64,000 nucleotides of DNA. It comes from Rhodoferax sediminis (lineage in GTDB: Bacteria; Pseudomonadota; Gammaproteobacteria; Burkholderiales; Burkholderiaceae_C). The notes beneath the pieces were generated by a model that saw only the letters and a list, made by a program, of their open reading frames with translations, did no database searches and was not told the DNA's origin. Shown in pieces: positions 5,677-23,933 of this stretch (position 1 is its first letter; each line of letters begins with the position of its first letter). Location: the NCBI RefSeq assembly GCF_006970865.1, contig NZ_CP035503.1:1377001-1441000 (forward strand). The letters are read 5' to 3'. The position numbers and the translations under genes were made by a program.

Positions 5677-6465
5677 ATGCCCAAACCCCGTGCTCCCGCC
5701 GTCTCGTACGGCACCGCCCTCGGCCACGCGTCTGCCGACAAGCGCATCGAAATCCTGCGCCTGATCGGGCGCAGCGGTTCCATCTCGCAGGCGGGGCGCG
5801 AGGCGGGCGTCAGCTACAAGGCCGCCTGGCAGGCCATTGACACGCTGACCAACCTGGCCGGGGTGGCCCTGGTCGAGCGGCTGGTGGGCGGGGCGGGCGG
5901 TGGCGGTGCCAGTGTCACGGCGGCGGGCCGGCATTTGCTGACGGTGGCCGACGCACTGGAGCAGGCGCGCGTCCAGGTGCTGGCTCGCATTCAGCAGCAG
6001 GGCGATTCGCAAGCTGCCGGCATGCCGCCCGCGCTGACGCAACTCCCGGTGCGCACCAGCATGCGCAACCAGCTGCCCTGCAAGGTCCAGGCGCTGGATT
6101 TGCAGGGCCAGATTGTGCGGGTATGGCTGCAACTGGCCGGTGGCGCGGCGCTGGTGTCACGCATCACGGTGGAGAGCGCCGAGCTGCTCGGCCTGCGCGA
6201 AGCACTGCCGGTGCTGGCACTGTGCAAGGCCACGGCGGTCTCGGTCGGCCGCACGGCCGACGCCCCAATTCTGCACACGGCAAATGTGCTGCCGGGGCGT
6301 GCCAGCCGTGTGGCGCGCGGCCCCACCGGTGATGAAGTCGCCGCCCAGCTCGATGGAGGCTTGCAAATGGTCGGGTTTGCAGCGCCGGCCAGTGGTTTGC
6401 GCCCGGGCAGCCGCGTGGCGATGACGGTCGAGGAGTCGGCACTCGTGATTGCCCTCATCGACTGA
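5677..6465 (+). CDS. modE: Molybdate-responsive transcriptional regulator ModE
   Basis: Cytoplasmic one-component regulator, 262 residues. An N-terminal LysR-like winged helix-turn-helix (about residues 20-85, with GSISQAGREAGVSYKAAWQAI) is followed by two tandem Mop/TOBE domains (about 127-190 and 200-262) that bind molybdate. This is full ModE architecture. Known ModE proteins repress modABC and can activate molybdoenzyme genes. A palindromic candidate operator lies upstream of modA. Whether ModE also acts on the adjacent hydroxylase operon is not shown by the sequence. Confidence 0.95.
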   Translation: MPKPRAPAVSYGTALGHASADKRIEILRLIGRSGSISQAGREAGVSYKAAWQAIDTLTNLAGVALVERLVGGAGGGGASVTAAGRHLLTVADALEQARVQVLARIQQQGDSQAAGMPPALTQLPVRTSMRNQLPCKVQALDLQGQIVRVWLQLAGGAALVSRITVESAELLGLREALPVLALCKATAVSVGRTADAPILHTANVLPGRASRVARGPTGDEVAAQLDGGLQMVGFAAPASGLRPGSRVAMTVEESALVIALID

Positions 6466-6511: not shown

Positions 6512-7633
6512 CTAGTGGCGTTTTCCGTTGCCAAGTTTGCGGTACACCGTGGCGCGGCTGATGCCCAGCAGGCGCGCGGCCCGGGCCACGTTGCCGCGGG
6601 CGTCATCCACGGCTTTGCGGATCAGTGCGGTTTCCACGTCTTTCAATGGCCTGTTGCCGTTGCCGAGAATATCCACGCCAGCCTCCATGTGGTTCACCGC
6701 ATCGGCGGGCGCCATCGGCAGCGCGTTCAGGCGCAGGCCACTCCACAGGGGGACTTCCATCGTCGGGTCCTGCCGCAGCACTGCATCAAACAGGATCTGG
6801 TAGGGCAAGCCCAAAACATCTCCGATATGCACGGGCGCCGGCGTGGCAAGTTGCGACGCCATCTGGCGTGCAATCTGGTTGGCGCCGACCACCCAGCCAT
6901 CGTCATCCAGGCAAACCATGCCATCGGCATCGAAGCCCAGGGGGTGGCCCGGCCAGTTCAGCCGCACCAGCAACCGGTGGGGCTGGCTGAGCAGCAGGGC
7001 GTTTTCGATGCGGCAGGCCGACTGGGCCGCCAGATGCTTGAGTTCGGGGCGTTCCATCGCCTCAATTCCGGTCAGGTCGAGCATGCCCACGCAGCGCCCG
7101 TCGGGTCCGAACAAGGGCGCGCCCGCGCAGCTGTAAAACGAAGTGGCCGAGAAAAAGTGCTCGCCCCGGTGCAGCCAGACCGGGCGCAGTTCGCCCAGAG
7201 CGGCACCAATGGCCGAAGTGCCGATACTGCGCTCGGACAGATCCACGCCGATGCGGGCGATCGCATCGGCGCGGCGATCACTGCGGTCGATCGCGCCGCT
7301 GACATCCACCACCACGCCCTGCGCGTTGGTCAGGATGACGAAATAGCGCGTATCCACGATAGCCCGCCCCAGCTTTTCCAGCACCGGGCGGGCGGCTTGC
7401 ACGAGGCTGTGGTTGGCCTCTTCGGTGTGCCGCTGGAGCTGCGGGGGGACCACATCAAATCCCACCCCCTGCTCGGGCCGCAGGCCGCTCGACAGGCAGC
7501 GCCGCCATGAGCGCTCGATCCACGACGCCGACAATGCCTCGTGCGGCGGTCGACTCTCGTCCAGCACGGCGTGGCGGGCCCGATCAATCTGCTGGAGGCG
7601 TTGTTCAGGAGACCGTGTCAGGGCTTGCTGCAT
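6512..7633 (-). CDS. GAF / Fis-type HTH regulator, AcoR-like but without AAA+ domain
   Basis: Predicted transcription factor, 373 residues from the ATG at 7633, chosen because GGAG lies 6 nt before it; an ATG at 7645 lacks a ribosome site. The N-terminal half resembles the sensor (GAF) region of AcoR-type activators (SERSIGTSAIGAAL, SFYSCAGAPLFGPDG). A PAS-like stretch follows (DDDGWVVGANQIARQM). The C-terminus is a Fis-type helix-turn-helix (ALIRKAVDDARGNVARAARL then RATVYRKL). The central AAA+ ATPase that contacts sigma-54 is absent. It is divergent from the Mo-hydroxylase operon and its start abuts the conserved promoter box at 7648, so it is the natural candidate regulator. Confidence 0.85.
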   Translation of the reverse strand: MQQALTRSPEQRLQQIDRARHAVLDESRPPHEALSASWIERSWRRCLSSGLRPEQGVGFDVVPPQLQRHTEEANHSLVQAARPVLEKLGRAIVDTRYFVILTNAQGVVVDVSGAIDRSDRRADAIARIGVDLSERSIGTSAIGAALGELRPVWLHRGEHFFSATSFYSCAGAPLFGPDGRCVGMLDLTGIEAMERPELKHLAAQSACRIENALLLSQPHRLLVRLNWPGHPLGFDADGMVCLDDDGWVVGANQIARQMASQLATPAPVHIGDVLGLPYQILFDAVLRQDPTMEVPLWSGLRLNALPMAPADAVNHMEAGVDILGNGNRPLKDVETALIRKAVDDARGNVARAARLLGISRATVYRKLGNGKRH

Positions 7634-7647
7634 GGGGTGCTCCATGT

Positions 7648-7704
7648 TGTTTCATTTTGAGAATTTCATGTTGATCTTGACATGAAGCTAGGGTTTAGCC
7701 TAGG
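7648..7704 (+). promoter_or_regulatory. Shared two-part promoter element, copy 1 (Mo-hydroxylase operon)
   Basis: TGTTTCATTTTGAGAATTT (7648-7666) and, 39 nt start to start, GCTAGGGTTTAGCCTAGG (7687-7704) are repeated base for base upstream of the PQQ dehydrogenase gene at 16700 and 16738. The second block is an imperfect palindrome (CTAGG...CCTAG). TTTCAT and ATGAA arms flank the spacer. The element ends 75 nt before the small-subunit start. A TTGACA at 7677 could be a -35 hexamer, but it is not conserved in the other copy. Function as activator site plus promoter is inferred. Confidence 0.8.
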
Positions 7705-7779
7705 GTGACTCCTGGGTTTCGCTTGAACAATGTACTGGCATCGAACAAACTACTTCCTTGCTAACAGGAGATAAGTCTT

Positions 7780-8247
7780 ATGCAAGTTCAACTCAAAGTC
7801 AACGGAAAGAGCTCCACCCTTGACCTGGCCCCCAACACGCTGCTGGTACAGGTGCTGCGCGAGCATCTCAAGCTCACGGGCACCCACGTCGGCTGCGACA
7901 CTGCCCAGTGCGGCGCCTGTACGGTGATCATGAACGGGCACGCCGTCAAGTCATGCAACATGCTGGCGGCGCAGGCCAGCGGGGCCGACATCACCACCAT
8001 CGAGGGGCTGGCGCAGCCGGACGGCACCATGCACCCGATGCAGGCGGCGTTCAAGGAATGCCATGGCCTGCAATGCGGGTTCTGCACGCCCGGCATGGTG
8101 ATGAGCGCGATCGACTTGTGCCAGCAGCATCCCAAGGCCACCGAGTCCGAAATCCGTGAACTGCTCGAGGGCAACATCTGCCGCTGTACGGGTTACCAGA
8201 ACATCGTCAAGGCCGTGCAGCAGGGCGCTGCGGCCATGGCGGCCTGA
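7780..8247 (+). CDS. Molybdenum hydroxylase small subunit, two 2Fe-2S clusters (CoxS-like)
   Basis: Electron-transfer subunit of a xanthine oxidase-family Mo enzyme, 155 residues. The plant-ferredoxin-type cluster uses Cys39, Cys44, Cys47 and Cys59 ([10 protein letters not shown]); the second cluster uses Cys99, Cys102, Cys134 and Cys136 (CGFC and NICRCTGY). The AGGAG ribosome site lies about 8 nt before ATG. It is the first gene of an S-L-M operon; CoxS in carbon monoxide dehydrogenase and the matching subunits of aldehyde or isoquinoline oxidoreductases share this layout, so substrate cannot be read from this subunit. Confidence 0.93.
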
Positions 8248-8280
8248 TTCACTGCCTGAACTATCTAAGGAGTACAGAAC

Positions 8281-10653
<2,373 letters not shown>

Positions 10654-10664
10654 GGAGAATCACG

Positions 10665-11456
10665 ATGTACGCATTCACGCTGGAGCGCCCCTCCACCATT
10701 GCAGACGCCGCCAAACTCGCCGCCGCTGGCGCCAAGGTGCTGGCCGGCGGGCAAACCCTGCTGGCCTCGATGAAGCTGCGCCTGTCCGACCCCGGGCAAC
10801 TGGTCGATCTGGCCAATATCAAGGAACTGGCCGGGATCAAGCGCGAGGGCAACGCCTTCGTGATTGGCGCCATGACGCGCCACGCCGATGTGGCCGCCAG
10901 CGCCGAACTCAAGGCGGCCCTTCCTGTGCTGGCCGATCTGGCCGCGCACATTGGCGACCGCCAGGTGCGCGCCATGGGCACGCTGGGCGGCTCGGTGGCC
11001 AACAACGACCCTGCCGCGGACTACCCCGCGGCCGTGCTGGGCCTGGGTGCCACCGTCGTGACCACGCAGCGCAAGATTGCGGCCGACGACTTTTTTACCG
11101 GCATGTTTTCCACAGCGCTGAATGACGGTGAATTGATCACGGCCATCAGCTTTCCCATCCCCAAGCGCGCCGCCTATATGAAGTTCGTGCAACCGGCCTC
11201 GCGTTTTGCGCTGACCGGTGTGTTTGTGGCCCAGGGTGACTCTGGTGTGCGCGTGGCCGTGACGGGTGCGGGGAACGGCGTGTTCCGCCACAAGGGACTG
11301 GAAGATGCCTTGAACAAGAGCTTTACGGCGCAGGCCGCGGCGGCGGTCAAGATCGATGCGACCGACCTGAACGCCGACATTCACGCCACGGCGGCCTACC
11401 GCGCCAACCTGATCAGCGTGCAAACCCAGCGGGCGGTCGCCAGGGCGCTGGGCTAG
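10665..11456 (+). CDS. Molybdenum hydroxylase medium FAD subunit (CoxM-like)
   Basis: FAD-binding subunit of 263 residues that passes electrons from the FeS subunit to the acceptor. The FAD motifs are visible: AGGQTLLASMK near residue 28 and the second glycine-rich motif TLGGSVANNDPAAD near 106. The start at 10665 is set by AAGGAG 8 nt upstream; the reading frame is open further 5' but runs into the large subunit gene. It lies 11 nt after the large subunit, completing an S-L-M set, followed within 7 nt by a MoxR-type ATPase. Confidence 0.93.
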   Translation: MYAFTLERPSTIADAAKLAAAGAKVLAGGQTLLASMKLRLSDPGQLVDLANIKELAGIKREGNAFVIGAMTRHADVAASAELKAALPVLADLAAHIGDRQVRAMGTLGGSVANNDPAADYPAAVLGLGATVVTTQRKIAADDFFTGMFSTALNDGELITAISFPIPKRAAYMKFVQPASRFALTGVFVAQGDSGVRVAVTGAGNGVFRHKGLEDALNKSFTAQAAAAVKIDATDLNADIHATAAYRANLISVQTQRAVARALG

Positions 11457-11463
11457 AGACGAC

Positions 11464-12378
11464 GTGTTTGCAACGATTGATGCACTGATCAAGGCGCTGG
11501 AGGAGGCCGGCTACTACGCCGATCGCAGGCTGGCCACCGCCGTGTTTCTGGCGCTCAAGCTGCAGCGCCCACTGTTGCTGGAGGGCGAGCCGGGCGTTGG
11601 CAAGACCGAGCTGGCCAAGGCGTTGGCCGTGGCCTTGCAGCGCGCGCTGATCCGCCTGCAGTGCTACGACGGGCTGGAGTTACGCGAAGCCCTGTACGAG
11701 TGGAACTACGCGGCCCAGCTGTTGCACATGCGCGCCGCCGAATTGCGCCATGAGGGCCAGAGTGACACCGCGCAGGTCGAGCGCGAGGTCTACCAGGACC
11801 GCTACCTGATTCGCCGCCCCCTGCTGCAGGCGCTGCAGACCCCCGCGCCGGGCGCCGTGCTGCTGATCGACGAGGTGGACCGCGCAGACGAGCCGTTCGA
11901 GGCCTTCCTGCTCGAATACCTGGGCGAGTACCAGGTCAGTATTCCCGAGATCGGCACGGTAAGCGCTGTCAGCAGCCCTGTGACCATCCTCACCAGCAAC
12001 CGCACGCGCGAACTGCACGATGCGGTCAAGCGGCGTTGCCTGTACCACTGGCTCGACTATCCCGAACGTGAGCGCGAACTGGCGATTGTGCGGGCCCAGG
12101 TGCCGCAGGCCAGCCCGGCGCTGTCGGCGCAGGTGGCCGAGTTCGTCGGGCGTTTACGCAGTGCGCCGTTTGCCAACGCGTTCCAGCGGGCGCCGGGCAT
12201 TGCCGAGAGTGTGGAGTGGGCCCGGGCGCTGGTCGCACTCGATACGCTGGTGATGGACCCCGAAGTCGTGACCGGCACCGCCGGCATCCTGTTCAAGCAG
12301 CGCGAAGACGTGGCGGCCCTGACGCGCGACCTGGCCGCGGAACTGCTGGCTCCGGAAGACGCGCCGCAAGCTGCCTAG
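11464..12378 (+). CDS. MoxR-family AAA+ ATPase (CoxD-like)
   Basis: Predicted maturation chaperone of 304 residues. Walker A GEPGVGKTE is at residues 41-49, Walker B VLLIDEVDRAD near 136-146, and the sensor region TSNRTRELHDAVKRRC near 177-192. CoxD of Oligotropha carboxidovorans is a known relative that works with CoxE in building the active site of CO dehydrogenase. The start is GTG, 7 nt after the FAD subunit gene. Its presence beside a form II enzyme without the Cu-binding Cys suggests a more general role in Mo-enzyme activation. Confidence 0.9.
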   Translation: MFATIDALIKALEEAGYYADRRLATAVFLALKLQRPLLLEGEPGVGKTELAKALAVALQRALIRLQCYDGLELREALYEWNYAAQLLHMRAAELRHEGQSDTAQVEREVYQDRYLIRRPLLQALQTPAPGAVLLIDEVDRADEPFEAFLLEYLGEYQVSIPEIGTVSAVSSPVTILTSNRTRELHDAVKRRCLYHWLDYPERERELAIVRAQVPQASPALSAQVAEFVGRLRSAPFANAFQRAPGIAESVEWARALVALDTLVMDPEVVTGTAGILFKQREDVAALTRDLAAELLAPEDAPQAA

Positions 12379-12404
12379 ACGCATCGCGGTTTGAAGGAGC
12401 CTTC

Positions 12405-13589
12405 ATGCAGCTTGGCGACGCACGCACCGGGAAACTCGCCGACAACATCACCGGTTTTGGCCGCGCCTTGCGCCGCGCCGGCGTGCGCGTTGACAGTTCG
12501 CGCATTGCGCTGGCGCAGGACGCGGCGCTGGCTGTCGGCGTCGGCGCCAAGGCGGACCTGAGCGCCGCACTGGAGGCCGTGATGATCAGCCGCGAGCAGG
12601 ACCGGCTGGTGTTTCGCGAACTGTTCGATGCCTACTTTCGCAACCCCGAAATAGCCAGGAAGCTGCTGGCGCAATTGCTGCCCAGTGCCGAGGGCTCGGC
12701 CGAGCCCAGCAAACGCCGTCCGCGTGTGCGCGAGGCGCTGTCGCCGCAACAGACCTATGGCCACCAGGCCAAACCCAAACAGGAAGACCAGAAGGTGGAG
12801 TTCGACGCGGCCATGACGGCCAGCGACCTGCAGCGTCTCAAGCACGCCGACTTCAATGCGCTCTCGGGCACGGAGTACCGGCTGGTCGAGCGACTCGCGC
12901 GCGACGTGCGCCTGCCGCTGCCGAACTTTGCCTCACGCCGCACCTGTCCGGCCGGCTCGGGCGCGCGATTGCACTGGCCCGGCGTCATGCTCCAGGCCTC
13001 GCGCACCGGCGGCGAGCTGATGCACCTGCCGCGGCTCAAGCGGCGCGAGCAGCCGCTGCCGCTGCTGGTGCTGGTGGATGTATCGGGCTCGATGGAGCGC
13101 TATGCGCGCTTGCTGCTGGCTTTTTTGCATGCGGCCACCCGGCGCCACCCGCGGCGCGACGTGTTTGCGTTTGGCACCCAGCTGACCGACCTGACACCGG
13201 CCTTTCGCATTGCCGATACCGACGAAATGCTGGCAGTGGCCAGCGCCGCGATCGAAGACTTTGCCGGCGGCACCCAGCTGGGCGCGTCGCTGGCCAGCCT
13301 GCGCCTGCATCATGCGCGCCGGCTGGTCGGGCGGCGCACACTGGTGCTCATCATCACCGACGGACTGGATACCGGCGAGCCGCAGGATCTGGCACCGGAG
13401 CTGGCATGGCTGCGCCGCGCCAGCCGCCGGCTGCTCTGGCTCAACCCGCTCTTGCGTTTTGACGGCTATGCGCCCAGCGCGCGCGGTGCCGCAGTGCTGC
13501 ACGCTTATGCGCACGGCATGCTGGCGGTGCACGACCTGAGCCGTCTGGAAGATCTGGCGGCCAGCCTGGCGGCCTTGATGAAGCGTTGA
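12405..13589 (+). CDS. von Willebrand factor A domain protein (CoxE-like)
   Basis: Partner of the MoxR ATPase, 394 residues from the ATG at 12405 (GAAGGAG 6 nt before it). The C-terminal vWA domain has an intact MIDAS: DVSGS at Asp225, Ser227 and Ser229, the downstream GGTQLG with its Thr, and the TDGLD Asp. The N-terminal half is the CoxE-type charged region with KRRPRVREALSPQQ. MoxR/vWA pairs act as metal-dependent assembly chaperones. It follows the ATPase by 26 nt and precedes coxG. Confidence 0.9.
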   Translation: MQLGDARTGKLADNITGFGRALRRAGVRVDSSRIALAQDAALAVGVGAKADLSAALEAVMISREQDRLVFRELFDAYFRNPEIARKLLAQLLPSAEGSAEPSKRRPRVREALSPQQTYGHQAKPKQEDQKVEFDAAMTASDLQRLKHADFNALSGTEYRLVERLARDVRLPLPNFASRRTCPAGSGARLHWPGVMLQASRTGGELMHLPRLKRREQPLPLLVLVDVSGSMERYARLLLAFLHAATRRHPRRDVFAFGTQLTDLTPAFRIADTDEMLAVASAAIEDFAGGTQLGASLASLRLHHARRLVGRRTLVLIITDGLDTGEPQDLAPELAWLRRASRRLLWLNPLLRFDGYAPSARGAAVLHAYAHGMLAVHDLSRLEDLAASLAALMKR

Positions 13590-13629
13590 ACAGCCCCCCC
13601 AATAACCACCAGAAATAGAGGAAAAAACA

Positions 13630-14214
13630 ATGGACATGCAAGCCAACCGCCAACTGGCCGTGACACAGCAACAGGCCTGGGAGGCGCTGAACGACCCCGT
13701 GGTCCTCAAAGCCTGTATTCCGGGTTGCGACAAGGTCGAAGCGACGGGCGAGAACCAATATGCCATCGGCCTGGCGCTCAAGATCGGCCCGGTTGCAGCC
13801 AAATTTGCCGGAAAAATCAACCTTAGCGACATCAAGCCGCCCAATAGCTACAACATTGCTTTTGAGGGGCAGGGCGGCGTGGCGGGGTTTGGCAAAGGCA
13901 ACGCCCAGGTCACACTGACGCCCAACGATGCGGGCTGTGACCTGGCCTACGTTGTTCATGCGTCGGTCGGTGGCAAGGTGGCGCAACTGGGACAGCGCCT
14001 GATCGATGGCGCCGCCAAATCCATGGCCGAAGACTTCTTCAAACGCTTCGACGATGAGATGCAGCGCCGCTTCCCCGAGGCCTATGCTTCAAAAGTGATA
14101 GCTGGAGGCCAAGAAGTGGCGCTGGCGAAGGGCACAAAAGGCTCGAAGATTCCGGTCTGGGTTTGGATTGCGGGGGTTGTGGTGGTGCTGGCCCTCATCT
14201 GGTGGCTGCGCTAG
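13630..14214 (+). CDS. CoxG-like SRPBCC protein with C-terminal membrane anchor
   Basis: Protein of 194 residues. The N-terminal SRPBCC/START-like fold covers about residues 1-145 (typical opening ANRQLAVTQQQAWEALNDP). The C-terminus is a single hydrophobic helix (about 174-193) ending WWLR. CoxG of CO dehydrogenase clusters is thought to anchor the enzyme at the cytoplasmic membrane, and the same role is inferred here. The GAGGAAAAAAC leader gives a ribosome site. The gene carries a 17-nt repeat at 14086 in frame, in the linker before the membrane helix. Its 3' end overlaps the start of a TonB receptor gene. Confidence 0.88.
   Translation: MDMQANRQLAVTQQQAWEALNDPVVLKACIPGCDKVEATGENQYAIGLALKIGPVAAKFAGKINLSDIKPPNSYNIAFEGQGGVAGFGKGNAQVTLTPNDAGCDLAYVVHASVGGKVAQLGQRLIDGAAKSMAEDFFKRFDDEMQRRFPEAYASKVIAGGQEVALAKGTKGSKIPVWVWIAGVVVVLALIWWLR
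14086..14102. repeat. 17-nt GCT...TAGC palindrome, copy 2 (inside coxG)
   Basis: GCTTCAAAAGTGATAGC lies in frame in the coxG linker and encodes A-S-K-V-I-A. It has the same length and pattern as the copies at 6472, 39947, 52678 and 60866. Confidence 0.5.
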
Positions 14215-16489
14215 GGCGCGGCCAAAGGGCAGCCACGACCCTCAGCCTGGCGCTCTGCTGTGCAGTTTGCCAGGCCCAGGGAAACAAGGCAGAGTCCCTC
14301 GAGTTGCCCACGGTCACCGTGGTCGGCACCAGCCCCTTGCCGGGACTGGGTGTCCCTCTGGACGATGTGCCGGCCAATGTCCAGATGATCAAGGGCAGCT
14401 CGCTCGGCGACCAGCACGACACAAGGGTGACGGATTTTCTGGAGCGCAACGTCACCAGCGTCAACATCAATTCCGAGCAGGGTAATGCGGACCAGCAAAG
14501 CGTGACGTTCCGGGGCTTTTATGCTTCGCCCATTCTGGGGGTGCCGCAGGGCCTGTCCGTTTTTCAGGACGGGGTTCGCATCAACGAAACCTTTGGCGAT
14601 GTCGTCAATTGGGATTTGATTGCGCCCACCGCGATCTCCAGCATGCAGTTGGTTCCCGGCTCCAATCCGCTGTATGGGTTGAACACGCTGGGGGGGCGCT
14701 GGCCGTCTATACCAAGAGTGGCAAGCAATACCCTGGATTCAGCGTTGGTACGAGTGTGGGCTCGTTCGGCAGAAAGCAGATGGACGTCGAATACGGTGGC
14801 TTCAAGGACAACTGGGACTACTTCCTGACCTACAACGCCGCCAACAGCCAGGGCTACGCAGCGCAGAATGCGAGCCAGGTGCGGCAGTTCTTCGGCAAGT
14901 TGGGCTGGCAGGACAGCATGACCGATTTTGATGTGTCGCTGACCCTGGCGGACAACCATTTCACTGGCAATCAGACCTTGCCATTGAGCATGCTGGATGA
15001 TCTTCGACAGTCCTACACCTACCCGGACACCAACAGGAATCAACTGTCGTTCTTGACCGTCAAGGGCAGCCACTTCCTCAGTGACGACTGGCTGATTGGC
15101 GGCACCGCCTACTTCCGCAGCTCGGACAATTCCGGCGCCAACAGCAATACCCAGGGTGGTCCCTACAACACACCGACCTGCGCGACGGATCGGGGGCCTG
15201 CAGACGCCAACGGCAACCCTACCGCTCCCGACGGCAGCAACTGCTCGGGTAGCAATGTGTTTCAGCGTTTGAATCAAGACACCTACGGACTTGGCCTGCA
15301 GCTGACATCCACCCAAAAACTGATGGGTTTCGACAATCAGATGATTCTCGGTTTCACGGCCGATCTGGGCAGGGGCACGTTCAGCCAGTCGGCGCAGGAC
15401 GGTTACTTCACCAGCAACCGCAACACCGTCGGTGTTGACGATGCATCGCAGAACGTGCTGTTGAAAACGGCCAACCGCTACTACGGTGTGTTTATATCGG
15501 ACAGCCTGCAACTGGGTCCCAAGTGGACGTTGACCGGTTCCGCGCGTTACAACATGGATCGCGTGACGATGGCGGACCAGTTGGGCACCGCGCTCAATGG
15601 CGACCATAGCTTCGCCCACCTGAGTCCGGCGCTGGGTCTGAATTTCAAACCCAACCCGACTGTGGTGAGTTACATCGGCTACACCGAAGGCATGCGCGTT
15701 CCCTCGCCGATAGAACTGAGCTGCGCCGACCCGCAGGCGCCCTGTTCGCTGCCCAACGCATTTTCGTCCGACCCGGCCCTGCAGATGGTGGTGACGCACA
15801 CCTGGGAGATCGGTGCCCGCATCAGGGTGAGTGCGCAAACCCGGCTCCAGGTGGCGGCCTATCAGACCCTCTCGGACAACGACATCAACTTCGCCGCCGA
15901 TGCCAACTCGCCCACCCAGGGGTATTTCGCGAATGTGGGAACGACGCGTCGGCGCGGCATCGAAATTTCATCGCAGAGCACCTTTGATCACTGGGGTCTG
16001 CAGACAGCCTACAGCTATACCCAAGCCACCTACCAGAGCGCCTTTGCCCTGAACAGTCCGGACAACAGCAGCGCGGATGCCAATGGCGTCATTCAGGTGT
16101 CGCCGGGAAACCGCTTGGCCAACGTGCCCAGCCAGCTCCTGAAGATCCGCCTGGAGTACTCGCCCGACGCGACCTGGAAGTTCGGCGCTAACATGAACTA
16201 CTCGGGCCGGATCTACTCACGAGGCAACGAAAACAATCTCGATCCGAATGGAAGGGTGGGTGGCTACACGGTTTTCAATCTGGACGCCTCCATGCATGTG
16301 AACAAGCAACTGGAAGTGTTTGCACGCATCAATAACCTGCTGAACCGGCAGTACGCCAACTTCGGCGTTCTGGGTGCCAACTATTTCTCGGGACCGGGCA
16401 ACAGCTACAACGCCGCTGGCATGCCATCACAGTTTGTCGGCGTCGGTCAACCCATCGGCGCGTGGGTCGGAGCGCGCTACAACTTCTAA
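14202..16489 (+). pseudogene. TonB-dependent receptor, frameshifted at a G7 tract
   Basis: Outer-membrane receptor gene in two frames. The first part, from a likely GTG at 14202 that overlaps the coxG end by 13 nt, encodes a signal peptide (cleavage near CQAQG) and a plug domain. After the plug motif NPLYGLNTLGG the frame breaks at seven G (14690-14696). The barrel continues in the next frame (GGALAVYTKSG onward) to a proper C-terminal Phe at 16489. One extra G restores a protein of about 760 residues. The cause may be a real mutation, slippage-based phase variation or a sequencing error. Substrate is not readable; the neighbourhood suggests a cofactor or metal chelate. Confidence 0.85.
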
Positions 16490-16699
16490 CCCCGTTGAGG
16501 GCAAGTGCCGCGCCATCACGGGCTCTTCAGAGAAGCAATGTTTTGTGCGCCATGACTGCACCATGAGTCGCATCATTGTCGTTAGAGATCAACTACAAAG
16601 TGTTGCGAATGAAATGCTGTACTTACGTGTATTGGTTCGGCTATGAAGTCGCGTCGTCATGCGCACAATGGCACTCGCGGTGCGGACAGGATGCGACGC
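16490..16699. other. Gene-free stretch before the PQQ dehydrogenase promoter
   Basis: The whole gap to the next gene is 334 nt. Apart from the promoter element at 16700-16755 I see no hairpin terminator, repeat or credible small gene in it. Confidence 0.5.
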
Positions 16700-16755
16700 T
16701 GTTTCATTTTGAGAATTTGATGAGCGGCCCAATGAAAGCTAGGGTTTAGCCTAGG
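16700..16755 (+). promoter_or_regulatory. Shared two-part promoter element, copy 2 (PQQ dehydrogenase)
   Basis: TGTTTCATTTTGAGAATTT (16700-16718) and GCTAGGGTTTAGCCTAGG (16738-16755) are identical to the blocks upstream of the Mo-hydroxylase operon, with start-to-start spacing of 38 instead of 39 nt. It ends 68 nt before the dehydrogenase start, against 75 nt in the other copy. Conserved sequence, spacing and distance to the gene argue for one shared regulator and promoter. Confidence 0.8.
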
Positions 16756-16823
16756 AATCTCTGAAAAGAACGGTCCAACAATGGCGTCGCCTGACAGGCA
16801 AACTCAACACCAGGAGACCCTTC

Positions 16824-18503
16824 ATGAAACGTCTTTTCCCATCCGTGGCATTCGCCGTGATGCTGGGCATTGCCTCCACCGCCAGCGCCCAGAACTGGCC
16901 GGTGTACGGTGGCGATGCCGGCAATACCCGGTTCAGCCAGTCCACCGAGATCAATACCTCGAACGTCAACAAGCTAAAGGTCAAATGGGCCTTGCAACTG
17001 GGCAGCTTGCGCTCGCAGGAGTCGACGCCCATTCTGGTCGGCGACACGCTCTACGTGAGCTCATCGTTTGGTCCCAAGAACACGTTTGCACTGGACGCCA
17101 GGACCGGTCAAATCAGGTGGCAATATTCGCCGGACGTTCCAAAGGGGATTGATCAGTACGCCTGCTGCGACGTGGATAACCGTGGCGTGGCCTACAACGA
17201 CGGAAAGATTTTTGTCGGCCGACTCGATGCCAATGTGGCTGCGCTCGATGCCAAGACCGGCAAGGAACTGTGGGTCACGAAGATCGTCGACTACACCCAG
17301 GGCTCGGTCATCACCTCGCCCCCGACGCTGGTCAAGAACCTCGTGATCACCGGCTACGGTGGTGGTGAATATGGCGCGCGCGGCGCTCTGGTGGCACTCG
17401 ACCAGGCCACCGGCAAGGAGGTGTGGCGCACGTACACCACGCCGCTGCCGGGTGAAAAGAACAGCGACACCTGGAAGGGCGACAGCGGCAAGCTCGGTGG
17501 GGGCGCTGCCTGGTTTGTCGGCTCCTACGATCCGAAGTTGAACCTGGTCTATTACGGCACCAGCAACCCCTCGCCATGGGCTGCAATTGTTCGCGGCAGT
17601 GACAGCTCGGACATTGGCCCGTACACCAATCTCTACACCTCGTCGGTCATTGCACTCAATCCCGAAACCGGCAATATCGTATGGCACTACCAGTTCACGC
17701 CGCACGATGCCTGGGACTACGATGGCGTCAACGAGCTGGTCTTTGCTGACCTTCCGGTGCAAGGCAAGAAGACGCCCGTCATCATGACGGCCAACCGCAA
17801 CGGCTTTTTCTATGTGCTCGACCGTGCCAACGGCAAGCTGATCTCCGCCAAGCAGTTCATTGACGGAGTCAATTGGGCCACCGGCATCGACATGAAAACC
17901 GGCATGCCGATCGAGGCGGCGGACAACGCCAAGCGGCCAGGCGCGAAGCGTAAGGCGACAAACATTTGCCCGGCCCTGCTCGGCGGCAAGAACTGGATGC
18001 CGATGAGCTACGACCATGTCACCGGTCTGGTCTACATTCCTACCTTGAACATGTGCATGGACGAGGTAGGCGAGGTTGCCAACTACACGCGCGGCGCCTT
18101 CTACCTCGGCGTCAACTTCAACATGCACGAAGCCGGGGACAGTGGTTACCTGGGAGGCGTCAAGGCCTGGGATCCGGTCGCGCAGAAGACGGTCTGGTTC
18201 AACAAGGACAAACTGCCTTGGGCCGGCGGCATGCTGAGCACGGCAGGCGGCCTGGTCTTCCATGGCGACATCGAGGGATGGTTCAAGGCGCTGGATGCTA
18301 AAACCGGTAAGACGCTGTGGAAGTTCAACGCCGGCTCCGGCATTAGCGCCGCGCCGATGACCTACACCCTGGACGGCAAGCAGTACGTCGCCGTCGTGGC
18401 CGGCCGCACTGAGTCCATCCCGGCGTTCGCGGCTGCCATCGGCGAGAAAATGGTCGCTGCCAGTCCCGAAGGCGGAGCGCTGTATGTGTTCACGCTGAAC
18501 TGA
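16824..18503 (+). CDS. PQQ-dependent alcohol dehydrogenase, lanthanide-type (XoxF/ExaF-like)
   Basis: Periplasmic quinoprotein of 559 residues with a signal peptide cleaved near TASA-QNW. It shows beta-propeller repeats (ALDAKTGKELW, ALDQATGKEVW, ALNPETGNIVW, ALDAKTGKTLW) and the vicinal disulfide Cys114-Cys115 that packs on PQQ. The catalytic Asp298 is followed by Tyr299 and Asp300 (HDAWDYDGVNE). The second Asp is the family marker of lanthanide-dependent enzymes; Ca-dependent MxaF has Ala there. No cytochrome domain is fused. The product is shorter than typical 600-620 residue relatives. The alcohol substrate is unknown. It has its own promoter element and is followed within 16 nt by its likely electron acceptor. 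Confidence 0.93.
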   Translation: MKRLFPSVAFAVMLGIASTASAQNWPVYGGDAGNTRFSQSTEINTSNVNKLKVKWALQLGSLRSQESTPILVGDTLYVSSSFGPKNTFALDARTGQIRWQYSPDVPKGIDQYACCDVDNRGVAYNDGKIFVGRLDANVAALDAKTGKELWVTKIVDYTQGSVITSPPTLVKNLVITGYGGGEYGARGALVALDQATGKEVWRTYTTPLPGEKNSDTWKGDSGKLGGGAAWFVGSYDPKLNLVYYGTSNPSPWAAIVRGSDSSDIGPYTNLYTSSVIALNPETGNIVWHYQFTPHDAWDYDGVNELVFADLPVQGKKTPVIMTANRNGFFYVLDRANGKLISAKQFIDGVNWATGIDMKTGMPIEAADNAKRPGAKRKATNICPALLGGKNWMPMSYDHVTGLVYIPTLNMCMDEVGEVANYTRGAFYLGVNFNMHEAGDSGYLGGVKAWDPVAQKTVWFNKDKLPWAGGMLSTAGGLVFHGDIEGWFKALDAKTGKTLWKFNAGSGISAAPMTYTLDGKQYVAVVAGRTESIPAFAAAIGEKMVAASPEGGALYVFTLN

Positions 18504-18519
18504 CAGGAAGGACAGACCC

Positions 18520-19683
18520 ATGACAACACGCGGAAAGATCAGGCAATATCTGATCGGTGCCGCGTGTGCCGCCGGTGCGCTGATGGCGCCTGAGGCACAC
18601 GCGGCAGGGGTGCTGCGGGTGTGCGCCGATCCGGACAACCTGCCTTTCAGCAAGGCGGACGGACCCGAGCACGGCCTGTACGTGGAACTGGCCAATATGG
18701 TGGCCCGGCGCATGGGCGATACGGCGCAGTATGTCTGGTGGCTGTCATTCAGCGAGAAGAAGGCGCTGCGCAACACTCTTCTCAATGACAAGTGCGACGC
18801 CTACTTTGCCCTGCCGGCGGACCCCGAGTACAAGGCTCCTGGCGTCCAGCGGACGCAGGCCTTTCTCGACATGAGCTACGCCATCGTCGCGCCGGCCGAA
18901 GACAAAATCAACGGCCTGGCCGACCTCAGGGGCAAGCGGGTCGCCGTATTGAGCGGCTCGGCGCCGCATATTTTGCTGGCCAGCCAGAAGGGCTACACCA
19001 CCAGCAGTTTCGTCCTCAACGAGGACGCGATGAATGCGCTGGACAAAGGCGAAGTTGACGCCGCCATTTTGTGGGGCCCGAGCGCCGGCTATGAAAACCT
19101 GACGCGGTTTCACAGCCGCTGGCGTGTGACTCCCGTCAGCGGCGAGGGGATGTCCGGGCGGATGGCGGTCGCGGTACGCTGGGGCAACGATGCTCTGGCG
19201 GCCGACATCAACCAGGCGCTGATCGACCTGCGGCCCGACATCGTGGCACTGGCCGACAAATACGGTTTCCCGCGCGGCAAGCCCGTACGACTGGCGAGCG
19301 CATCGGATGGTTCGCGCAGCATGCATGGGTCCGGTGCTAACGGGCCTGCCGATTCTCTCGTGCAGGCGAGGGTGGTGCGCGCTGGCTTCATCAAAACTGC
19401 CGACACGACGCAGCCGGCCGCTGCCACCGGTGGCGACGCGAAAGCCGGGCGCGAATTCTTCAACAGTACCTGCGCGCATTGCCACAGCACTGATGGGGCC
19501 AGCCCTATCAGTGCGCGCGACTTGCGGCGCCTTAAATCACGCTACAAGGACCAGTGGCCTGAGACGGCTGAAACCACCATCAAAAATGGCAGGCCGGATG
19601 CCGGCATGCCAACTTGGGCAGGCATTCTGAGCCAAAAGGACATCGATGACATCGTCAGTTTCCTGACGACGATCCAAAAATAG
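18520..19683 (+). CDS. MoxJ/XoxJ-like periplasmic binding protein fused to cytochrome c domain
   Basis: Periplasmic protein of 387 residues. After a signal peptide ending near AHA-AG comes a solute-binding domain of the quinoprotein-associated type (about 28-260, opening VLRVCADPDNLPFSKADG). A linker of about 50 residues follows, then a class I cytochrome c domain (about 305-387) with haem motif Cys318-x-x-Cys321-His322 and probable axial Met363 (DAGMPTW). In methylotrophs these are normally two proteins, MoxJ/XoxJ and MoxG/XoxG. It lies 16 nt after the PQQ dehydrogenase, so it is probably its assembly partner and electron acceptor in one chain. Confidence 0.88.
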   Translation: MTTRGKIRQYLIGAACAAGALMAPEAHAAGVLRVCADPDNLPFSKADGPEHGLYVELANMVARRMGDTAQYVWWLSFSEKKALRNTLLNDKCDAYFALPADPEYKAPGVQRTQAFLDMSYAIVAPAEDKINGLADLRGKRVAVLSGSAPHILLASQKGYTTSSFVLNEDAMNALDKGEVDAAILWGPSAGYENLTRFHSRWRVTPVSGEGMSGRMAVAVRWGNDALAADINQALIDLRPDIVALADKYGFPRGKPVRLASASDGSRSMHGSGANGPADSLVQARVVRAGFIKTADTTQPAAATGGDAKAGREFFNSTCAHCHSTDGASPISARDLRRLKSRYKDQWPETAETTIKNGRPDAGMPTWAGILSQKDIDDIVSFLTTIQK

Positions 19684-19790: not shown

Positions 19791-21986
19791 TTGAAGTGCC
19801 AATTTATATTCGTTGATTGCGGCCTGCCGGCTGGGCGTCCGCGGCGGATCGCAGCCGGCCATGCACTGGCTTTCCTGATCGCATCGGGCTGCACTCTACA
19901 AGCGCTGGGACAAACCGCATCAGAGCCGGCTGGTGAACGTTCCCTCAGTCCGGTTGTGGTGACGGTGACGCACGGCGTGGAGCAATCTGCATTCGATGCG
20001 CCGGCTTCGGTCGATGTCATTGACGCATCAACCATTCAAAATGCGGGGCCAGAGGTCAATCTGTCCGAGGTGCTGGTCCGGGTTCCCGGCGTGGTTGCGC
20101 AAAATCGCCAGAACTATGCGCAGGACATTCAGATTTCTTCGCGGGGATTTGGCGCGCGTTCCACCTTCGGTGTTCGGGGCCTGAGGCTCTACGCCGACGG
20201 CATCCCTGCGAGCTTCCCGGACGGGCAGGGGCAGGTGTCGAATTTCGATCTGGCGTCTGCTTCCAGGATCGAAGTTTTGCGCGGGCCATTTTCGGTGCTG
20301 TACGGCAACTCCTCTGGCGGCGTGATCAGCCTGTTTACCGCCGACGGCGGCCCGCAAACTATTGCTGACATATCCACCACTTGGGGTAGCAACGGCGTGC
20401 AGCGCACTGGCGTGAAATTGAGTGGCACGGAAGGTGCAGCGCAGTACAACATCAGCGCCGCCAAGTTCAGCACGGATGGTTATCGCGAGCACAGTGCTGC
20501 GACCCGGGAAAATTTCAACGGCAAGTTGAAGTACACCGTCAGCGATGACACTCACTGGACATTCGTACTCAACAACGTGAACATGCCCGGCGTTCAGGAT
20601 CCTCTCGGGCTGACGCGAGCGGAAATGCTCGCCAATCCGCGCCAGGCGACGCCCAGTGCCTACACATTCAATACGCGCAAATCGGTGAGCCAGCTTCAGG
20701 GCGGTATCGTGTTTGATCAACGCCTGGGTGCTGGGCAGTCGTTCCAGATTACCACCTACTACGGCACGCGCAGTACCGAGCAGTTCCAGTCGATTCCCGT
20801 GGCCACCCAGAGACCGTTAACACAGCCGGGCGGCGTGATCGATTTGAGCAGCCGCTACCGGGGACTGGACGCACGCTGGATTGATAAATCCCGGTTGCTG
20901 GGCAAGCCGTTGACACTGACCGCTGGCGTGTCGACGGATCAGCTGAGCCAGGCGAGACTTGGTTTCCAGAACTTTGTAGGCACCACGCTCGGGGTGCAGG
21001 GAGCCCTGCGACGTGACGAGCTCGATACGGTTAACGCGTTCGATCAATACGTGCAGGGGCAATGGGAAGTGGCTGAGCGATGGAGTGTTTCTGCAGGTTT
21101 GCGTCATTCGCGCGTGTCGTTCGGCTCGCAAGACCACTACATTGTTGCCGGTAACGGCGACGACAGCGGCTCCGTCAGCTATCAGGCCACAACGCCAGCA
21201 CTCGGTGTGGTGTTCCATGTCACCGACGCCTTGAACCTCTACGCTTCAGCGGGGCGCGGTTTTGAGACGCCGACCCTCAATGAATTGGCCTATCGTGCCG
21301 ATGGGGGGACGGGCTTGAATTTTGACTTGCACAGTGCAACCAGCCGGCAATGGGAAGTCGGGATGAAAACCGAGTTCATGTCGAACTGGCGCTTGAATGC
21401 GGCCTATTTTCGGGCGAATACGGCCAATGAGACGGTGGTGCTGAGTAACTTTGGTGGTCGCAGCACCTACCAAAATGCCGGGATGACCCAGCGCGACGGC
21501 GTTGAGGCCGCGCTGTCCGGACACTGGGGTAAGGGCTGGTCGACGTACCTGGCCGCGACGTATCTGAATGCTACGTACGGCAGTAGTTTCCTGACTTGTG
21601 TTGCCGCACCGTGCACCACACCGAACACACTGATTGCCGCGGGAAACCGGATCCCCGGCATTCCCCGCGCCAGCCTTTTTGGTGAACTAGCCTGGCAGCA
21701 CCAGGCCTGGGGTCTGGAAACCGCTCTGGAATGGCGTCACGTGGGGAAAATCTATGTGGATGATCGCAATAGCGACGCTGCGTCGCAGGTGAGTCTGATT
21801 AACTTGAGGGCTTCGCTGACACAGAAATTGGGCCACTGGGCAGTCAGGGAATTTGTTCGCGTCGACAATCTGACCAATCGCAACTATTCGGGCTCGGTCA
21901 TTGTCAATGAAAGTACCAGCCGCTTCTTCGAGCCTGCACCGGGCCGCAACTGGCTGGCTGGTTTGGGCGCAGCATATACGTTCTAG
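19791..21986 (+). CDS. pqqU: TonB-dependent receptor, PqqU (YncD)-like PQQ importer
   Basis: Outer-membrane receptor of 731 residues with plug (about 45-170) and 22-strand barrel ending in Phe. Several stretches match what I recall of E. coli YncD/PqqU: VPGVVAQNRQNYAQDIQIS, RGFGARSTFGVRGLRLY, the GNGDDSG loop, GRGFETPTLNELAYRADG and GSVIVNES. PqqU takes up pyrroloquinoline quinone in E. coli. The start is TTG, backed by TGGAG five nt upstream and by the signal peptide. Its place directly after a PQQ enzyme makes cofactor import the obvious role. No PQQ biosynthesis gene is seen in the window. Confidence 0.85.
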   Translation: MKCQFIFVDCGLPAGRPRRIAAGHALAFLIASGCTLQALGQTASEPAGERSLSPVVVTVTHGVEQSAFDAPASVDVIDASTIQNAGPEVNLSEVLVRVPGVVAQNRQNYAQDIQISSRGFGARSTFGVRGLRLYADGIPASFPDGQGQVSNFDLASASRIEVLRGPFSVLYGNSSGGVISLFTADGGPQTIADISTTWGSNGVQRTGVKLSGTEGAAQYNISAAKFSTDGYREHSAATRENFNGKLKYTVSDDTHWTFVLNNVNMPGVQDPLGLTRAEMLANPRQATPSAYTFNTRKSVSQLQGGIVFDQRLGAGQSFQITTYYGTRSTEQFQSIPVATQRPLTQPGGVIDLSSRYRGLDARWIDKSRLLGKPLTLTAGVSTDQLSQARLGFQNFVGTTLGVQGALRRDELDTVNAFDQYVQGQWEVAERWSVSAGLRHSRVSFGSQDHYIVAGNGDDSGSVSYQATTPALGVVFHVTDALNLYASAGRGFETPTLNELAYRADGGTGLNFDLHSATSRQWEVGMKTEFMSNWRLNAAYFRANTANETVVLSNFGGRSTYQNAGMTQRDGVEAALSGHWGKGWSTYLAATYLNATYGSSFLTCVAAPCTTPNTLIAAGNRIPGIPRASLFGELAWQHQAWGLETALEWRHVGKIYVDDRNSDAASQVSLINLRASLTQKLGHWAVREFVRVDNLTNRNYSGSVIVNESTSRFFEPAPGRNWLAGLGAAYTF

Positions 21987-22044: not shown

Positions 22045-23115
22045 ATGGAAAACCTCGATGTGATGGTGCTGCGCACCCTGCGCGACTGGCGCACGTCCGG
22101 CAAGCGCGCCTTGCTGGCCACCGTGGTGCGCACCTGGGGCTCCTCGCCGCGGCCCGTGGGCTCGATCATGGCGCTGTGCGAAGACGGCCTGGTCGTGGGC
22201 TCTGTGTCGGGTGGCTGCATCGAAGACGACCTGATCTATCGCCACACGCAGGCTTATTCAGGCAAGGATTCGGGCAACCAGATTCCCATGGGTGCGCCCG
22301 GTTTCGTCAAATACGGTGTCACGGCCGACGAGGCGCACCGCTTCGGCCTGCCCTGCGGCGGCACGCTCGAGTTGCTGCTGGAATACGACCCGGACGCCGC
22401 CAGCCTGTCCACGCTGGTCAACGCCCTGGACGCGGGCCAGTCGATGCAGCGTACCGTGCGCCTCGCTGACGGCAGCGTGTCGCTCACGCCGGCTACGGCG
22501 CCGGCAGAACTGGACTTGTCACAGACCGAACTGGTGAATACCTTTGGCCCTGAGTACCGCATGCTGGTAATCGGCGCGGGCCAGTTGAGTGAATATCTCG
22601 CGACCATGGCCCTGTTCAGTGGCTTTGCCGTGACGGTGTGCGATCCGCGCGAAGAGTACCGCAGTGGCTGGTCGGTGGCCGGCGCCAAGGTGGTCAGCGA
22701 GATGCCCGACGACGTGGTGGCGGCCTTCAGGGCGGATCGGCGCAGCTGTGTCGTGGCCCTCACGCACGATCCCAAGCTGGACGACCTGGCGCTGCTGGAG
22801 GCGCTCAAGACCGACGCCTTCTACGTGGGTGCCATTGGTTCGCGCCGCAACAACGGTGCGCGCAAGCAGCGCATGATCGAGCACTTCGAGCAGACCGAGG
22901 CCAGCCTGGCGCGCCTGCGCGGGCCGATTGGCATCTACATCGGCAGCAAGACGCCGCCGGAAATTGCGGTCAGCGTGATGGCCGAGATCCTCGCCGTCAA
23001 AAACGGCGTCACCTTGCCGCGCGACATGGACGTGGCCCGGGCCAAGGACGAGCTTGCCATCGTCGCCAATGATCCCGGCGAGCTGGTGTGCGCCATGCCG
23101 CGCAGCTACGCTTGA
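22045..23115 (+). CDS. XdhC/CoxI family molybdoenzyme maturation protein
   Basis: Cytoplasmic Mo-cofactor chaperone of 356 residues. The N-terminal XdhC_CoxI domain shows RTWGSSPRPVGS and SGGCIEDDL (about residues 29-62). The C-terminal Rossmann domain starts around residue 170 with MLVIGAGQLSEYLA and contains AIGSRRN. XdhC binds and helps sulfurate the Mo cofactor before insertion into xanthine oxidase-family enzymes. The gene is 8 kb from the hydroxylase genes but in the same strand and island. It follows the PqqU-like gene by 58 nt; GAAAGGGG precedes the ATG. Confidence 0.92.
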   Translation: MENLDVMVLRTLRDWRTSGKRALLATVVRTWGSSPRPVGSIMALCEDGLVVGSVSGGCIEDDLIYRHTQAYSGKDSGNQIPMGAPGFVKYGVTADEAHRFGLPCGGTLELLLEYDPDAASLSTLVNALDAGQSMQRTVRLADGSVSLTPATAPAELDLSQTELVNTFGPEYRMLVIGAGQLSEYLATMALFSGFAVTVCDPREEYRSGWSVAGAKVVSEMPDDVVAAFRADRRSCVVALTHDPKLDDLALLEALKTDAFYVGAIGSRRNNGARKQRMIEHFEQTEASLARLRGPIGIYIGSKTPPEIAVSVMAEILAVKNGVTLPRDMDVARAKDELAIVANDPGELVCAMPRSYA

Positions 23116-23249
23116 GCGTGCGCGCGACCGCGTAACAAAGTGCATACGAACGTACCGGCCGCACCTTAACGGAATAGACTGCCTCCTGTCCATCGGCCCC
23201 GTTCCCGTCACGTGGATGCCTGGCCGACCGTGGATTGAGGGGGTGTCAA

Positions 23250-23933
23250 TTGAATCCGAATGATCATGTCCGCGTACTGATCGTCGACGACGAGGCGCAA
23301 TATTTGCAGCGCTGCACCGCTGCCGTGCTGGCCGACCCGAGCCTGCGCCTGACCGGGGCGGTGACCAGCGGCGCCGCTGCCATCGCGCTGCTGGATCATT
23401 GCCCGCCCGATGTGATGCTGATCGATCCGGGCCTGCCCGACATGCTCGGCATCGAAGTGATCCGCCACGCAGTCAGGCACTGTTCGCACACGCATATTCT
23501 GGTGGTGGCCGCGTCGGCGGATGCCGGTCATGTGCCGGCCTGTGTCGATGCGGGCGCGACGGGCTACCTGCTCAAGGATGTACCGGCGCCGCGCATCTGC
23601 GTCAGTATTCATGAGCTGCACGACGGCGGCGCATCGATCGGCCCCGGCATGGCCCGCCATGTTCTCGAGTGCTTCCGGCAGACCCCGGCTGCGGCGGCAC
23701 CTGTGGCCCCGGTGAATGGGGCCGTACGCAACGGAAGTCCCGTGTTGCTGTCGCAGCGCGAGTCGGACATCCTGCGACTCGTGGCCAAGGGCATGGCCTT
23801 CGCCGAGGTTGGTGCGCTGCTCTCCATCTCGCCGCATACGGTGGTGACGCACGTCAAGAAAATCTACCGCAAGCTGGCGGTTCATTCGCGCGGGGAGGCC
23901 GTTTTCGAGGCCAGCCAGATGGGGCTGCTGTAA
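23250..23933 (+). CDS. LuxR/NarL-family response regulator (orphan)
   Basis: Two-component regulator, 227 residues from the TTG at 23250 (GAGGGGG about 7 nt upstream; a second TTG at 23235 is possible). The receiver domain has the acidic pair VDDE and phosphoacceptor Asp in MLIDPGLPD (about residue 58). The C-terminal NarL-type helix-turn-helix is intact (LSQRESDILRLVAKG then SPHTVVTHVKKIYRKL). No sensor kinase gene is next to it. Such orphan regulators occur near PQQ dehydrogenase genes in other bacteria, but the target here is not shown. Confidence 0.88.
   Translation: MNPNDHVRVLIVDDEAQYLQRCTAAVLADPSLRLTGAVTSGAAAIALLDHCPPDVMLIDPGLPDMLGIEVIRHAVRHCSHTHILVVAASADAGHVPACVDAGATGYLLKDVPAPRICVSIHELHDGGASIGPGMARHVLECFRQTPAAAAPVAPVNGAVRNGSPVLLSQRESDILRLVAKGMAFAEVGALLSISPHTVVTHVKKIYRKLAVHSRGEAVFEASQMGLL

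Follow-up and report, generated by a model that had tools for sequence, protein, structure and literature searches.

Why does one stretch of Rhodoferax sediminis DNA carry the same two short sequence blocks ahead of a molybdenum (Mo) hydroxylase operon and, about 9 kb further on, ahead of a pyrroloquinoline quinone (PQQ)-dependent alcohol dehydrogenase (PQQ-ADH)? The window analysed here is the whole stretch of 64,000 nucleotides (nt) of contig NZ_CP035503.1, positions 1,377,001 to 1,441,000. A sequence-only reading of the window had proposed that the blocks form a two-part element that places both enzymes in one regulon. In this study, sequence comparison makes it quite probable, in our view, that the element acts as a composite promoter, dependent on an activator, for a small regulon of aldehyde and alcohol oxidation. 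The elements of the two copies are as follows.

7648-7666, + strand: block 1 of copy 1, TGTTTCATTTTGAGAATTT, the proposed operator of the regulator
7687-7704, + strand: block 2 of copy 1, GCTAGGGTTTAGCCTAGG, palindrome-like CTAGG-N6-CCTAG
7726-7731, + strand: third conserved element of copy 1, AACAAT, a proposed -10 element
16700-16718, + strand: block 1 of copy 2, TGTTTCATTTTGAGAATTT, with no mismatch to copy 1
16738-16755, + strand: block 2 of copy 2, GCTAGGGTTTAGCCTAGG, with no mismatch to copy 1
16777-16782, + strand: third element of copy 2, AACAAT, likewise a proposed -10 element

The blocks starting at 7648/7687 and 16700/16738 proved identical base for base, both on the + strand, as had been read. 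The start-to-start spacing of block 1 and block 2 is 39 nt in copy 1 and 38 nt in copy 2, block 2 lies 75 nt from the start codon at 7780 and 68 nt from that at 16824, and the spacers and flanks differ between the copies while the blocks match; these details were also confirmed. Both parts of the supposed two-part element are real, but a third shared part, AACAAT, had been overlooked, so the element has three parts. Side by side, both copies show AACAAT at a distance of 22 nt downstream of block 2. When the window was scanned with up to 3 mismatches, each block gave exactly 2 matches, and none was obtained in 100 shuffles. The exact pair, searched in the complete genome as proposed beforehand, occurred at 2 places in 4,387,497 bases (reversed control 0). 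The blocks are not a dispersed repeat. Likewise, only the two window places were found in this genome with the 17-base core of block 2 (up to 3 mismatches allowed; 3 matches in the reversed control) and with the degenerate block 1 pattern (TGTNNCANNTTGAGAA). A longer version of block 1 (up to 2 mismatches) added 5 weak places (reversed control 1).

Copy 1 lies between the operon coxS-coxL-coxM-AAA ATPase-CoxE-CoxG and the divergent gene of a regulator with a GAF domain and a Fis-type helix-turn-helix (HTH).

6512-7645, - strand: GAF and Fis-type HTH_8 regulator without an AAA+ domain (PF01590, PF02954)

A degenerate pair (TGAGA, 20-40 nt, TAGGGTTNNNCCTAG) was searched in 399 genomes of the family, and the regulator was counted as present there at E up to 1e-40. 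The pair was found at 54 places in 51 of the 399 genomes, and the reversed control gave 0. The regulator was present in 148 of the 399, namely in 50 of the 51 pair-bearing genomes vs 98 of the 348 others (Fisher p ~2e-23, which is indicative only, as the genomes are related). These data strongly support the shared regulatory module that had been claimed from the window. In an order sample of 220 genomes, 5 had the regulator with E no higher than 1e-50. Three of these belong to the family; in the two that do not (G558, G569), it stands beside genes for an iron-sulfur (FeS) protein and a tungsten aldehyde oxidoreductase (AOR), with block 1. Sequence logos were built from 48 training sites; L083, L110, L116-L120 and L122 were left out, and no motif was found in loci L115 and L121 by the two patterns used. 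The logos read TGTYNCATTTTGAGAAT[T/A]TC for block 1 and CTAGGGTT[T]NNCCTAG(G) for block 2. The TGAGA-to-TAGGG distance was 30, 31 or 32 in 47 of the 48 sites and 41 in one.

The regulator-adjacent regions without the strict pair provided 91 further promoters. L116 and L117 were handled separately, and the regulator-bearing genomes G166, G321, G112, G292, G281, G234, G379, G279 and G324 fell outside this set. Block 1 scored above the 1% null in 75 of the 91 promoters, block 2 in 42 and both in 40, and the largest of 1820 shuffles was exceeded by block 1 in 70 and by block 2 in 21. Of the two blocks, block 1 is the one that tracks the regulator more closely. From the start of block 1, a block 2-like sequence follows at a distance of 39-40 nt, or in a few loci 28-29 nt, about one helical turn less. 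The fixed block 1 pattern was then counted in 80 genomes, and was present in 16 of 22 that bear the regulator vs 1 of 58 that lack it (31 places vs 1; reversed control 5 vs 7), most of the 22 having been picked because their regulator had no adjacent block 1. Inspection of 30 of these 32 places revealed 19 loci with a target gene. In genomes whose regulator is not adjacent, the element still stands ahead of AOR, coxSL or IorAB-like genes, and 4 of 8 non-adjacent relaxed-pair matches precede coxSL, AOR or IorA-like genes. Because block 1 tracks the promoters and genomes of the regulator, and because the HTH core is invariant, block 1 is assigned to the regulator as its putative operator. The earlier proposal that this regulator binds the element is supported for block 1; block 2 may have the same or another binder.

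What kind of protein is this regulator? It would have 377 amino acids from the first ATG at 7645; the next Met, at 7633, had earlier been taken as its start. Among 32 homologs, HTH_8 (PF02954) was found in 32 and GAF (PF01590) in 29, the window protein included, and the sigma-54 interaction domain PF00158 in none at E 0.001. All 32 share the motif GxSRATxYR, unchanged, in the recognition helix. Regulator residues 39-261 correspond to DhaR residues 19-241 in the NCBIfam alignment. An AlphaFold model from the homolog alignment (predicted local distance difference test 83.5, predicted template modelling score 0.78) had as its three best PDB matches in Foldseek entries of the E. coli DhaR N-terminal part, DhaR(N), with E 3e-13 to 2e-12. 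On this model, the regulator reads as a DhaR-like sensor joined to an HTH, with the ATPase missing. AcoR/DhaR-type activators likewise have a GAF domain and a Fis-type HTH and are divergent from their target operon, but they consist of sensory part, AAA+ domain and Fis-type HTH, whereas the window regulator lacks the AAA+ sigma-54 interaction domain. The label AcoR-like thus holds for its sensory part and its HTH, and not for the AAA+ domain. Acetoin and dihydroxyacetone are small carbonyl compounds. The signal of the DhaR-like sensory part may be an aldehyde, an alcohol or something related. A sigma-54 promoter was dropped from consideration because the regulator has no AAA+ domain; no -24/-12 site was seen by eye in the two window promoters, for which no tool scan was made. 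For the same reason, activation of the sigma-70 type is proposed, in which the regulator would work with a sigma-70-type RNA polymerase.

Which enzymes stand behind the promoter? We compiled 145 sites (48 training sites, 75 of the 91, 15 from the block 1 and pair searches, the 2 window copies and 5 further PQQ-ADH sites). Downstream of them were 74 cox operons, 51 AOR genes, 8 IorAB-like genes, 6 PQQ-ADH genes, 2 TonB receptor genes and 1 xdhC gene, and 3 sites had none of these. Behind copy 1, the window carries the cox class.

7780-8247, + strand: coxS-like [2Fe-2S] subunit (family profile matches)
8281-10653, + strand: coxL-like Mo subunit (family profiles; AYRGAGR motif of form II)
10665-11456, + strand: coxM-like flavin adenine dinucleotide (FAD) subunit (family profile matches)
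11464-12378, + strand: AAA ATPase of the operon (Pfam AAA_5, AAA_3; MoxR-type by position)
12216-13589, + strand: CoxE-like VWA protein, whose true start is probably later
13630-14214, + strand: CoxG-like protein (domain match)
14163-16489, + strand: TonB-dependent receptor 1, in two frames with a break near 14690

The frame split of TonB-dependent receptor 1 near 14690 falls at a run of G, and its relatives at L106 and L108 are single open frames. The split may be a pseudogene, a recent change or a sequencing error.

The AOR protein has both AFOR domains and matches PDB entry 8c0z over residues 1-615, its whole length. This entry is presumably the Aromatoleum aromaticum enzyme. The third Mo enzyme consists of a [2Fe-2S] protein and a Mo-binding protein with an N-terminal twin-arginine motif, and is tentatively called IorAB-like here. 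For the tungsten enzyme AorABC of Aromatoleum aromaticum, the published description gives three subunits, which are the counterparts of the FeS, AOR and FAD genes behind the promoter (PMC6365974). Elsewhere in the family the promoter heads FeS, AOR and, at L075 and L089, FAD genes; unlike this, no AOR stands behind either window copy. Neither 'regulator' nor 'promoter' appears as a word in the passages of the AORAa paper that were consulted (PMC6365974). Mapped on a tree of 57 regulators, the AOR label changes 7 times in the simplest account, and well-supported branches force at least 3 of these changes. An alcohol-to-aldehyde-to-acid logic is supported indirectly, because the same promoter heads the tungsten AOR in other genomes. 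This lends indirect support to the alcohol and aldehyde regulon that had been suggested from the window.

The form II Mo enzyme might nevertheless oxidise something other than an aldehyde, such as carbon monoxide (CO) or an N-heterocycle, and share its regulator with AOR and PQQ-ADH through, for example, a general redox or starvation signal. The nearest PDB entries of CoxL are CO dehydrogenases, followed by quinoline 2-oxidoreductase. CoxL scores with the CO dehydrogenase model TIGR02416 (660.6 bits, under the cut-off of 991.15) and with the NCBIfam glyceraldehyde dehydrogenase model (648.5 bits, also under the cut-off). Against this, the CoxL translation carries AYRGAGR, the form II motif according to a 2026 survey (PMC13240472), and the form I motif (A/S)YRCS(F/L)R was not found in it. 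CO has been doubted as a substrate of form II enzymes, as stated in another paper (PMC6794299), and the partner enzyme is the one repeatedly swapped with an aldehyde oxidoreductase on the regulator tree. We regard a non-aldehyde substrate as possible but doubtful. The window operon resembles form II 'CO dehydrogenases' in its coxSLM subunits, its CoxE, CoxG, AAA ATPase and XdhC partners and its AYRGAGR motif; the survey records the activity of form II as unresolved (PMC13240472), whereas the promoter data here point to aldehydes. The most far-reaching interpretation is an exchangeable aldehyde-oxidation enzyme (form II Mo enzyme, tungsten AorABC or IorAB-like Mo enzyme) under a GAF-Fis regulator that has lost its AAA+ domain and a nearly invariant three-element, sigma-70-type promoter, with a PQQ-ADH recruited to feed it. 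In this full form, the proposal has in our judgement an even chance of being correct. If it is true, the form II CO dehydrogenases of these bacteria would be aldehyde dehydrogenases.

How would such a promoter work? Block 2 follows at 36-43 nt in 111 of the 131 sites of the cox, AOR and PQQ-ADH classes. In these 111, a core A-N-(A/C/G)-A-T lies at one offset in 91 and one base later in 12. If AACAAT is the -10 box, block 2 extends from about -50 to about -35, with its centre near -42, and block 1 is found near -82. From this layout we infer that transcription depends on an activator at the -35 position. The GAF-Fis regulator would bind block 1, near -82, as a dimer, block 2 (about -42) would replace the -35 box and hold a second dimer or a second activator, and AACAAT would serve as the -10 box. 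Alternatively, the regulator could be a repressor or autorepressor that uses blocks 1 and 2 as operators to keep the promoter off. In copy 1, just 2 nt separate block 1 from the first codon at which the divergent regulator could start, so binding there could silence that gene too. Against repression, a simple sigma-70 promoter scan found no site with both hexamers in either window promoter region, and block 2 in the -35 position suggests activator dependence. GAF-Fis proteins are also usually activators. Repression is thus an unlikely explanation.

Block 2, rather than block 1, could be the operator of the regulator, with block 1 belonging to another factor. Block 2 sits at the classic activator position. 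L116 and L117 combine a regulator homolog with block 2 alone, as no block 1 was found within -400..+200 (best score at most -12 bits), which speaks against the role given to block 1. On the other hand, block 1 is the better kept block in the 91 promoters, and in the set of 80 genomes it is almost exclusive to those that bear the regulator. Both the HTH core and the TGAGA core are invariant; block 2 varies. We therefore consider this explanation quite improbable, and retain block 1 as the putative operator. In L116 and L117, block 2 stands directly ahead of xdhC, and by eye a possible -10 (ATAATC) lies about 45 nt, not 22 nt, past it. Block 2 alone was rejected as a marker of the regulon: it was found in 35 of 299 genomes at up to 2 mismatches, yet it is unspecific. 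Twelve of 30 loci inspected from this search (L005, L007, L009, L012, L017, L021, L026, L028, L031-L034) showed none of the seven window genes sought, and some of the matches look like unrelated palindromes. Block 2 may belong to a wider-acting factor. A similar palindrome, CTAGGGCTTACCCTAG, was seen in L032 and L033, from two genomes of one other genus, beside a gene that by eye resembles one for an enoyl-CoA hydratase, with a -10-like TAGAAT about 21 nt from it in L033. ModE, whose gene is present at 5677-6465 and near the regulator in several loci, was set aside as a binder; block 2 is unlike the ModE site.

Why does copy 2 precede a PQQ-ADH? The genes behind it are the following.

16824-18503, + strand: PQQ-ADH (TIGR03075, 647.1 bits, above the cut-off of 480.05)
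18520-19683, + strand: MoxJ-like periplasmic binding domain fused to cytochrome c (family profiles)
19791-21986, + strand: TonB-dependent receptor 2, PqqU-like, a possible PQQ importer
22045-23115, + strand: XdhC-like maturation factor of Mo hydroxylases (family profiles)

TonB-dependent receptor 2 scored 701.4 bits with the PqqU model NF041535, below the cut-off of 1200, and covered positions 2-675 of 676. A LuxR-type response regulator at 23235-23933 was set aside as a binder because the elements track the GAF-Fis gene. The promoter would be used twice here, once for the form II Mo-hydroxylase operon and once for the PQQ-ADH, cytochrome, PqqU-like receptor and XdhC genes. In this scheme, the periplasmic quinoprotein would turn an alcohol into an aldehyde, which the Mo enzyme would then oxidise. 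This pairing, which had been proposed for the window, is supported, but in some lineages only: an orthologous PQQ-ADH (more than 70% identity) was found in 12 of the 399 family genomes, 9 of which encode the regulator. The PQQ-ADH branch is confined to few lineages. Block 1 precedes the PQQ-ADH in the same orientation in 6 of the 9 (G000, G070, G377, G019, G381, G335), and no convincing block 1 was found ahead of it in the regulator-less PQQ-ADH genomes G275, G092 and G196. In G176, of the same genus, the order is coxSLM-moxR-coxE-coxG-xdhC with no insert. The window and G070 have TonB-dependent receptor 1, copy 2, PQQ-ADH, the cytochrome fusion and TonB-dependent receptor 2 between coxG and xdhC, and G377 has the same insert without receptor 2. 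In G335 (locus L396), a second regulator copy lies beside a TonB receptor gene and PQQ-ADH-cytochrome-PqqU-like genes, with block 1 before both. This gene order fits an ancestral cox operon into which a PQQ-ADH cassette was inserted, between coxG and xdhC. That copy 2 is a passive product of recent duplication by rearrangement, without shared regulation, would suit the identical blocks within one genome and the apparent cassette insertion, but is very improbable, since the matching blocks are set in spacers and flanks that differ, and since in other genera G019 and G381 have both blocks, and G335 block 1 and a weak block 2, before a PQQ-ADH on contigs different from that of the cox promoter. 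Profile searches for pqqE gave a match over the cut-off in 7 of the 12 PQQ-ADH genomes, and none in the genome studied here or in G070, G319, G110 and G092. This strain may scavenge PQQ.

Several observations weigh against the regulon as we read it. The strict pair also occurs at L083 (G300) and L110 with none of the sought genes, and L110 belongs to G371, the sole pair-bearing genome without the regulator. Block 1 above the 1% null is absent from 16 of the 91 further regulator promoters. No target gene was found at 11 of the 30 inspected block 1 loci, nor behind 4 of the 8 non-adjacent relaxed-pair matches (L333, L335-L337). At all 8 IorAB-like sites, the -10-like core is missing from its usual offset. 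In the PQQ-ADH branch, block 1 is weak in G110 (7.6 bits), close to the 7.5 bits of the regulator-less G092, and in G319 and G176 block 1 at the PQQ-ADH points the opposite way.

Regulons of PQQ-ADH enzymes, such as those of ExaDE/ErbR and PedR, are comparable in that a PQQ-ADH is controlled, but there the regulators are LuxR-type response regulators. A regulon of this type, with a transcription factor and a composite promoter, is known in kind. In the literature searched (titles and abstract openings, with subscription papers mostly outside), no description of the element or the regulator was found, and three features did not come up: a regulator of this kind lacking AAA+, the third element, and Mo and tungsten enzymes that replace one another behind one promoter. 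Among the matches listed for the literal block sequences, every paper was unrelated by title. A promoter and regulator that repeatedly swap a form II enzyme for a tungsten aldehyde oxidoreductase point to a specific function, which can be tested in the genomes identified here. The regulator of the module, which lacks the usual ATPase domain and comes with its likely operator, is also a candidate sensor of aldehydes or alcohols.

One locus with AOR genes had a further feature. Reading by eye of L087, some 4.9-8 kb downstream of its motif, showed a translation with repeated CSGQSSYPNRLD units, an open frame resembling Cas1 and a fragment that contains an HNH stretch like that of Cas9. This suggests a CRISPR-Cas locus near the AOR genes.

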